From Ignavibacteria bacterium (GTDB taxonomy: Bacteria > Bacteroidota > Ignavibacteria > Ignavibacteriales > Melioribacteraceae), in NCBI GenBank assembly GCA_012719345.1, contig JAAYAN010000200.1, positions 1 through 64,000 of the forward strand: a DNA stretch of 64,000 nucleotides, in the 5' to 3' direction. How positions within the stretch are numbered: position 1 is the stretch's first letter; each line of letters begins with the position of its first letter. The notes beneath the pieces were generated by a model. It saw nothing but the letters and a program-made list of their open reading frames with translations, was not told the origin of the DNA and did not search any database. The position numbers and the translations under genes are program-made. This document shows, one piece after another, positions 969 to 27,425 of this stretch.

Positions 969-1037
969 TTACTTTTGGTTTACAAATCTGTCATAGGGGG
1001 ATAGTAGCGGACAATAGATGTATGTACGCCAATTCAT
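969..1037 (-). pseudogene. Decayed start of a second GIY-YIG nuclease gene
   Basis: Reading minus from ATG at 1037 gives 22 residues beginning MNWRTYIYC and ending in TAA. They line up with the start of the intact nuclease next door, which begins MKWYTYILY. The alignment continues weakly through S.., D+F. The position relative to the 66-bp repeat copy is the same as for the intact gene (start codon just past the terminator hairpin). I read this as the truncated remnant of an earlier copy of the same tRNA-linked unit. It is short, so chance similarity cannot be fully excluded. Confidence 0.45.
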
Positions 1038-1044
1038 TATTTTT

Positions 1045-1110
1045 CGTTTAAAACTAAAAAACCTTGCAAATTATTATCTACAAGGCTTTAAGAGCGGGGC
1101 CGACGAGACT
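1045..1110. repeat. 66-bp direct repeat, copy 1 (tRNA-Asp 3' end plus terminator)
   Basis: Identical over 66 bp to 1389-1454. It contains the last bases of tRNA-Asp (acceptor and part of the T arm, minus strand) and its terminator hairpin. Similarity resumes at 1127-1137, which equals 1463-1473 (anticodon-stem 3' side and variable region). Between the two blocks, eight T-arm bases of the tRNA are replaced by a 16-bp palindrome (1111-1126). Confidence 0.9.
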
Positions 1111-1126
1111 TCCCGATTAATCGGGA
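1111..1126. repeat. Perfect 16-bp palindrome TCCCGATTAATCGGGA
   Basis: The palindrome sits inside the tRNA-Asp 3' half copy, replacing the eight T-loop/T-stem bases of the intact tRNA. Read on the minus strand it supplies the final Pro-Asp codons and the TAA stop of the GIY-YIG gene. Related TCCCG/CGGGA hairpins occur at 296-314 and 839-859, so it looks like a member of a local dispersed palindrome family. Confidence 0.7.
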
Positions 1127-1380
1127 CGACCTCCTGCTTTTGAAACTAATTCCTCAATATATCTTCTGCTTTTCTTCCTTTTTATTTCATTTTCCCGTTT
1201 TATTGCAGTGTTCTTTTCTTCGAATTCTTCAAAATATACAAGTTCCCAAGGGATTCCTCTTGATGAGAACTTCCCCCAGCCGGAATTGTGCCGGTCTAAT
1301 CTTTGCAATAAAATTTGTGTGTGTCCTGTATAAAACTTATCAATTGATTTTGAATATAGAATGTATGTATACCATTTCAT
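1117..1380 (-). CDS. Small GIY-YIG nuclease (UPF0213-like), tRNA-associated
   Basis: An 87-residue protein of the single-domain GIY-YIG endonuclease family. WYTYILYS near the N terminus and FYTGHT about 15 residues later are the GIY and YIG elements, followed by an R..HN segment and a Lys/Arg-rich C-terminal half. I chose ATG at 1380, which has GGAAG six bases upstream. A longer frame reaches an ATG at 1413, but that lies inside the repeat copy of the tRNA terminator region. The last codons (KAGGRPD) derive from a copy of the tRNA-Asp 3' half: GCAGGAGGTCG is shared with the tRNA at 1463-1473. Known members of this family are often found beside tRNA genes. DNA cleavage is the family activity; the physiological role is unknown. 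The gene is downstream of, and collinear with, tRNA-Asp. Confidence 0.8.
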   Translation of the reverse strand: MKWYTYILYSKSIDKFYTGHTQILLQRLDRHNSGWGKFSSRGIPWELVYFEEFEEKNTAIKRENEIKRKKSRRYIEELVSKAGGRPD

Positions 1381-1388
1381 TTTTCTTC

Positions 1389-1454
1389 CGTTTAAAACTA
1401 AAAAACCTTGCAAATTATTATCTACAAGGCTTTAAGAGCGGGGCCGACGAGACT
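1389..1454. repeat. 66-bp direct repeat, copy 2 (inside and beyond tRNA-Asp)
   Basis: The second identical copy overlaps the 3' end of the intact tRNA-Asp gene and its downstream hairpin (CCTTG/CAAGG followed by TTTTTT on the minus strand, about 1400-1429). Together with copy 1 it brackets the GIY-YIG gene, giving a unit length of 344 bp. Confidence 0.9.
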
Positions 1455-1512
1455 CGAACTCGCGACCTCCTGCGTGACAGGCAGGCGTTCTAACCAACTG
1501 AACTACGACCCC
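1439..1512 (-). tRNA. tRNA-Asp (GUC)
   Basis: The minus strand folds as a complete cloverleaf. Acceptor GGGGTCG pairs with CGGCCCC, the D arm is typical, the anticodon stem CCTGC/GCAGG encloses loop CTGTCAC with anticodon GTC, and the T arm contains TTCGAGT. Discriminator is G. CCA is not encoded. A terminator-like hairpin follows at about 1429-1400. The GIY-YIG unit is attached directly downstream. Confidence 0.95.
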
Positions 1513-3751: not shown

Positions 3752-3838
3752 GGAGAGTTGGCAGAGTGGTTGAATGCGGCGGTCTTGAAAACCGTTAAGG
3801 ATGTAAGTCCTTCCGGGGTTCGAATCCCTGACTCTCCG
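3752..3838 (+). tRNA. tRNA-Ser (UGA)
   Basis: Acceptor GGAGAGT pairs with ACTCTCC, with discriminator G. The anticodon stem CGGT/ACCG surrounds loop CTTGAAA with anticodon TGA. The long variable arm typical of class II tRNAs is present, followed by the T arm GGGGTTCGAATCCC. CCA is not encoded. Confidence 0.96.
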
Positions 3839-3840
3839 CA

Positions 3841-24804: not shown

Positions 24805-24810
24805 AAAGTA

Positions 24811-24834
24811 CCCGCCTAAGGCGGGTTTTTTTTT
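24811..24834 (+). terminator. Terminator after ppiD
   Basis: CCCGCC (24811-24816), TAA loop, GGCGGG (24820-24825), then nine T. Confidence 0.88.
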
Positions 24835-27368: not shown

Positions 27369-27380
27369 GAAAAGATAATT

Positions 27381-27406
27381 ACTCCCGAAAATAGTTTTTC
27401 GGGAGT
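27381..27406. terminator. Hairpin between convergent VOC and nrfA genes
   Basis: ACTCCCGAAAA (27381-27391) pairs with TTTTCGGGAGT (27396-27406), an eleven-base perfect stem between convergent genes. There is no long T run on either side, so the terminator role is likely but not certain. Confidence 0.6.
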
Positions 27407-27425
27407 ATAATCTCAATCGGAATTT

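Follow-up and report, generated by a model that had tools for sequence, protein, structure and literature searches.

Integrative islands that use tRNA genes as tyrosine recombinase att sites regenerate the end of the tRNA while a partial 3′ copy of it remains, and in E. coli the tyrT gene is followed by 178-bp tandem repeats (rtT) that each contain the tRNA-Tyr 3′ end. Mobile endonuclease ORFs with duplicated gene ends have been described in fungal mitochondria, in Allomyces atp6 and in Glomus atp6, atp9, cox2 and nad3 (PMC3630166). These ORFs insert near the 3′ end of a gene, bring a replacement end, and leave the native end downstream, and the ORF in Glomus atp9 encodes a GIY-YIG nuclease (PMC3630166). 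A homing endonuclease of the free-standing GIY-YIG type, SegB, belongs to the tRNA region of phages T4 and T6 (PMC2988022; PMC13096335); it brings about the homing of tRNA segments and, in T6, their tandem amplification (PMC13096335). Here we analyze a bacterial locus in which a small GIY-YIG nuclease gene and a partial tRNA copy lie behind a tRNA-Asp gene. Our sequence comparisons point to a widespread, minimal selfish element at many tRNA genes across Bacteroidota-group bacteria.

The locus lies near one end of a 64,000-nucleotide stretch of an Ignavibacteria bacterium contig (JAAYAN010000200.1), which we refer to as the window, and all of its features are on the minus strand. In that order, pfkA (1583-2689) is followed by an intact tRNA-Asp (gtc; 1438-1512), detected by ARAGORN and with its position checked against the sequence, and directly 3′ of the tRNA by a terminator-like hairpin with a T run (1398-1438). 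The same type of terminator also follows tRNA-Asp at empty sites in relatives. Next is a gene encoding an 87-residue, UPF0213/SLX1-like GIY-YIG nuclease with conserved catalytic positions (1117-1380; PF01541, E=1.4e-15), the sole gene of the unit. Its last codons, encoding AGGR, are read from a copy of tRNA-Asp bases 40-50 (GCAGGAGGTCG; 1127-1137). A palindrome, TCCCGATTAATCGGGA (1111-1126), then takes the place of tRNA bases 51-58 (CGAGTTCG, the core of the T arm) and provides the stop codon, giving the C-terminal end ..K A G G R P D stop. The copy resumes with tRNA bases 59-74, the 3′ end (1095-1110), and is followed by a second terminator identical to the first (1054-1094). Bases 59-74, the terminator, and the leader up to the start codon together form a 74-nt segment found twice, 344 nt apart, with 71 of 74 positions identical and a perfect run of 66 nt. 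Extending this repeat reveals a remnant of a second GIY-YIG start (MNWRTYIY; 1014-1037), and below ~1010 the window holds nothing recognizable.

The original prediction, made from the letters of the window, had laid out an intact tRNA-Asp, a terminator, a GIY-YIG gene, a copy of the tRNA 3′ part, and a second terminator, with the last codons of the gene made from tRNA sequence; ARAGORN, the PF01541 match, and the perfect repeat agree with this layout, and bases 40-50 plus a stop codon from the palindrome account for the tail. It had taken the copy for a plain 3′ half of the tRNA, overlooking the replaced T-arm core. The decayed second GIY-YIG start that it described is real, in that the match runs on for 39 nt around the second ATG (82% identity, E=7e-5); it is also short, and the part from the ATG alone, ~24 nt, is of modest significance (25 of 2000 shuffles scored as well).

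The pattern of tRNA, nuclease gene, and partial copy recurs in dozens of genomes and is more frequent than chance would allow. GIY-YIG genes were present in 58 of 58 genomes searched, including the window's own, and many of these contain tandem runs of regular spacing. In an even draw of genomes from within the phylum, the family was found in 76 of 118. The original prediction had considered that relatives might carry the gene away from tRNAs; instead the genes are linked, with a same-strand tRNA beside 26 of the 30 best loci from this draw and an opposite-strand tRNA alone beside none (0/30). Counting unique GIY-YIG genes with a tRNA within 250 bp, a same-strand tRNA lies upstream of 66 and downstream of 8, and an opposite-strand tRNA beside 0; the linkage expected by chance is ~0.1%, calculated from 44 tRNA matches in 4.2 Mb. 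Partial copies match the neighboring tRNA, be it Asp, Asn, Pro, Met, Ala, Lys, Val, Ser, Cys, Gly, Leu, Arg, or Thr. The predicted recurring, nuclease-only unit tied to tRNA genes is thus upheld by same-strand adjacency in many genomes, by copies that match their neighbor, and by the frequency of arrays. In a scan of named genomes, the nearest relatives of the window's nuclease among the matches listed are in Ignavibacteria (Melioribacteraceae), and tRNA-linked members with matching partial copies are in Bacteroidota and Neomarinimicrobiota, again among the matches listed; this set was seeded with the Asp lineage, because an all-isotype alignment is too diverse for a contig scan, and is biased towards Asp. 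Among the matches listed in the same scan, tRNA-linked members also occur in single contigs labelled Verrucomicrobiota and Planctomycetaceae.

We find two arrangements. In the window and at loci L037 and L038, an intact tRNA is followed by the GIY-YIG gene and a broken tRNA 3′ part; at L036, L025, L040, and L065 the order is mirrored, with a broken tRNA 5′ part first, then the GIY-YIG gene, and the intact tRNA further downstream. Duplication of the 3′ half, as originally predicted, therefore holds for the window and is one of two forms, the mirror loci having 5′ copies. Some GIY-YIG genes start just a few bases past the tRNA (L202, L068). At 21 of 73 linked loci there are at least two GIY-YIG genes, partial ones counted, and arrays reach 3 units (L036), 5 units (L037 and L038), and 8 units (L275). 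We rejected assembly artefacts as the origin of the arrays, since those at L036, L037, and L038 sit in single-contig genomes. The eight units at L275 (1411-4400) are 364 bp long and lie behind a tRNA-like 3′ end (GGTTCGAGTCCAGTCCCCGCTACTA); ARAGORN and Rfam found no whole tRNA or tmRNA upstream of them.

The occupied and empty tRNA-Asp loci that the original prediction proposed to compare do exist. Genome G048 carries five units at tRNA-Asp (L038), and the same site is empty in its congeners (L235-L238), with upstream flanks 72-78% identical (L235-L238) and downstream flanks 67-76% identical (L236-L238). A second genome, G067, retains just a decayed GIY-YIG start where its congener G030 is occupied, and across the family the conserved pfkA/tRNA-Asp site is found in empty, remnant, and occupied states. 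The intact tRNA-Asp is identical in sequence between occupied and empty genomes. At L099, the native terminator type stands behind the broken copy and a different one behind the intact tRNA (48.8 versus 29.0), as expected if the element entered between the intact tRNA and its native terminator. This displacement is clear at L099 and weak, in the same direction, at L092 and L095; the two terminators of the window are alike and so uninformative. An architecture in which the element gives the working gene its end and displaces the native end fits at all loci read, and these comparisons support, short of proof, gain rather than loss of units. The repeated insertion proposed in the original prediction agrees with the empty site in congeners; inside an array, repeated insertion and tandem amplification would look the same in sequence.

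We identified 161 partial tRNA copies near 91 of 171 tRNAs, and an insert of at least 8 nt interrupts 132 of the 161. With each tRNA locus and arm counted once, hairpins are formed by 71 of 89 interruptions versus 18% of random windows, most commonly of the form TCC(CG)...(CG)GGA. Among the 41 cases in the class that affects the anticodon arm, the replacement begins on the arm's first base in 14 and finishes on its last base in 17 (offset 0 in each case); members of the tRNA-Asp lineage have the T arm replaced instead. Isotypes differ in where the outer end of the partial copy falls, be it the D arm or the anticodon arm, so we rejected a single insertion point read from these ends, and the insertion point in the anticodon stem that had been predicted is not general. 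The genome with the handle G049 has partial copies at 6 of 33 tested tRNAs and at none of 33 reversed or antisense tRNA controls. Its palindrome-broken partial copies (L058, L121, L127, L128) form arrays at tRNA-Met, -Lys, -Ser, and -Val, in which the copies follow one another at ~73-150 bp and no GIY-YIG gene intervenes.

The window's palindrome is dispersed in the genome from which the window comes, with 19 copies versus 0 in the reversed control. A related case is L134 (1169-1591), where the palindrome TCCCGACAAGTCGGGA lies within an RNase P RNA gene that has no GIY-YIG gene at that place. Because palindromes are dispersed in this way, including in the RNase P RNA gene, they may be a separate phenomenon. 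Over 58 genomes, palindrome and GIY-YIG counts were not correlated (rho 0.24, p 0.07), and on this ground we do not claim that the palindrome is a GIY-YIG-mobilized repeat.

Across 30 diverse members of the nuclease family, Y6, Y17, G19, R27, H31, E63, and K67 are invariant, and these include the catalytic Tyr, Arg, and Glu positions. The nearest solved structures by sequence are UPF0213 (1zg2, E=2e-17) and SLX1 (7cq2, E=5e-8), the latter a structure-selective nuclease. We found no separate DNA-binding domain or module in the 87-residue protein, whose only Pfam match covers residues 2-72. Tandem GIY-YIG copies have a pooled dN/dS of 0.09, showing that the nuclease is under purifying selection. 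In a tree built by a quick method from 75 columns, with many forks unresolved, tRNA-linked and unlinked GIY-YIG genes lie largely apart (9 changes versus 31.8 when shuffled), the linked members occupying their own part. Isotype changes 26 times on this tree versus 51.7 times when shuffled (shuffled minimum 48); GIY-YIG lineages thus keep their isotype far beyond chance, and jumps between isotypes do occur. The arm replaced by a hairpin changes 15 times across nuclease lineages versus 19.3 times when shuffled, but since shuffling within isotype gave 15.7, the replaced arm adds nothing beyond isotype.

GIY-YIG genes of this kind also occur at other structured RNA genes. At L289 (1290-2144) and L267 (1018-1800), the gene interrupts the RNase P RNA gene at the loop of its P3 hairpin. 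The two flanks of the nuclease gene at L289 can pair over 24 bp, and once the gene is replaced by a short loop the sequence folds into a long hairpin at the P3 position (z = -10); by inspection, L267 has the same arrangement. Two tandem GIY-YIG units ~390 bp apart follow a tmRNA at L287 (1420-2536), and at L214 (1880-3676), in one contig labelled Microgenomatus, a 301-nt insert with a GIY-YIG gene is located at a hairpin close to the 16S rRNA 5′ end. Though small in number, these loci suggest that hairpin loops in structured RNA genes are preferred sites.

The bacterial units resemble the fungal mitochondrial ORFs in an architecture that would fit displacement of a native gene end, and differ from them in residing in chromosomal tRNA genes rather than organellar protein genes. 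Nor do the accessible parts of the fungal report describe a hairpin-substituted remnant, nuclease-free arrays, or tandem arrays of 3-8 units (PMC3630166). Their nuclease is, like SegB, a small GIY-YIG protein that is free-standing and shows linkage to many tRNA isotypes; SegB is phage-borne, and duplication of a tRNA end with a palindrome has not been described for it. The bacterial genes belong to a UPF0213/SLX1-like clade with weak phage matches, and we rejected a phage origin, as the matches comprise 2 distant viral contigs and 14 weak phage records. Unlike the tRNA-gene islands, the unit has no integrase or site-specific recombinase and consists of ~0.3-0.45 kb with a nuclease only. The rtT repeats are also tandem repeats behind a tRNA that each carry a tRNA 3′ end, but lack a nuclease gene. 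REP/RAYT and other small palindromic repeats (PMC3733652) are likewise short dispersed palindromes, whereas no Y1 (HUH) transposase is present in the units read and the palindromes of this study occupy the hairpin arms in copies of RNA genes. These units differ from the fungal ORFs and SegB in targeting tRNA genes, in leaving a remnant with a hairpin substitution, in having arrays that lack the nuclease, and in being abundant in the chromosomes of bacteria.

We propose that the unit is a minimal homing-type selfish element that inserts at tRNA genes, provides the tRNA with a new end, and pushes the former end aside, and we assign this reading a probability of about 0.6. In its favor are the makeup of the units, their linkage to same-strand tRNAs, the occupied and empty states of one orthologous site, the fidelity of nuclease lineages to their isotype, the purifying selection, and the arrays. 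One unit would be made up of a GIY-YIG nuclease gene that stands alone, a terminator, and a segment replacing part of the host tRNA gene. On entering a tRNA gene, the element would complete the interrupted tRNA from its own copy, so that a functional tRNA is kept and the host's original tRNA end is left on the far side of the element. The nuclease would open a tRNA gene that lacks the element, perhaps at one of its hairpin arms, and the element would be mobile through break repair that copies it from an occupied donor, with the tRNA halves serving as homology. Substitution of one arm by a hairpin may shield the displaced copy from renewed cutting. The restored tRNA keeps the native sequence and would be open to cutting again, which could drive tandem arrays, as SegB does in phage T6. 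By the same token, because genomes with and without the element have the same tRNA-Asp, a target inside the tRNA alone would stay cuttable in carriers. Other observations also weigh against homing: the protein consists of a catalytic domain only, where classical homing enzymes have an extra DNA-binding domain; displacement of the native terminator is clear at L099 alone; many broken copies in arrays have no GIY-YIG gene between them (G049); palindrome counts do not track GIY-YIG counts; and the outer ends of partial copies scatter. Judging from sequence, we would place the unit with homing-type elements, yet not call its nuclease a proven homing endonuclease.

Some of these features would also follow if tRNA loci were tandemly duplicated by ordinary cellular recombination or replication slippage, with a GIY-YIG gene captured long ago and co-amplified and the broken copies as decaying duplicates. 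Near-identical unit arrays are a product of unequal exchange, broken-tRNA arrays without GIY-YIG genes exist, and both repeats of the window have the same native-type terminator. We consider such an origin unlikely, as it leaves unexplained one nuclease clade at about a dozen isotypes, always on the same strand and across phyla, the strong purifying selection on the nuclease, and the presence or absence of whole units among congeners. Purifying selection, UPF0213 and SLX1 as the nearest solved structures, and genes that start a few bases after the tRNA (as at L202 and L068) would all suit a host function, in which a domesticated structure-specific nuclease (SLX1/UPF0213-like) lies beside tRNAs for co-expression, e.g. 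for break repair at highly transcribed tRNA genes. Patchy presence (76/118 genomes, with empty congeners) argues against this, and decayed remnants, multicopy arrays, and the use of different tRNAs in different genomes fit housekeeping poorly, making a host role very improbable.

The palindromes could have a history of their own, as REP-like mobile sequences that insert into RNA genes at hairpin arms, separately from the GIY-YIG element, with spare tRNA copies hit because they tolerate it. Their dispersal in the window's genome, the palindrome in the L134 RNase P RNA gene, and the uncorrelated counts all favor this; the presence of a hairpin in most GIY-YIG-adjacent partial copies, often as an exact fill of the anticodon arm, and the excess of hairpins in interruptions over random windows speak against it. 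We regard it as plausible at somewhat less than even odds, and it is compatible with homing, concerning the role of the palindrome only. A broader and rather doubtful possibility, raised by the RNase P RNA, tmRNA, and 16S rRNA loci, is a minimal nuclease family that recognizes hairpins of structured RNA genes generally. Such a nuclease would need a replacement end in tRNA genes and would use tolerant hairpins in or beside the other three, and its cutting of hairpin arms, with palindrome replacement, might have seeded the broken-tRNA arrays across Bacteroidota-group genomes.

A search of open-access papers returned no earlier description of the element. If the homing-type reading is true, the element would be among the smallest selfish elements known, with one gene of ~85 codons in a unit of ~0.3-0.45 kb, and would live in essential RNA genes of a large bacterial group by rebuilding the gene that it breaks. 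It would account for many orphan annotations as "GIY-YIG nuclease family protein", for unusual protein tails that derive from tRNA sequence, and for arrays of broken tRNA copies, and would offer a simple system for asking how the host survives when a nuclease targets one of its essential genes.

Elsewhere in the window there are two more strong GC-rich palindromes, at 24810-24826 (ACCCGCCTAAGGCGGGT) and 27380-27407 (TACTCCCGAAAATAGTTTTTCGGGAGTA). The tRNA-Ser(tga) near pfkA (3752-3839) has a counterpart in a relative (L098, 3667-4030) that is accompanied by three 5′ partial copies (bases 1-21) carrying inserts.
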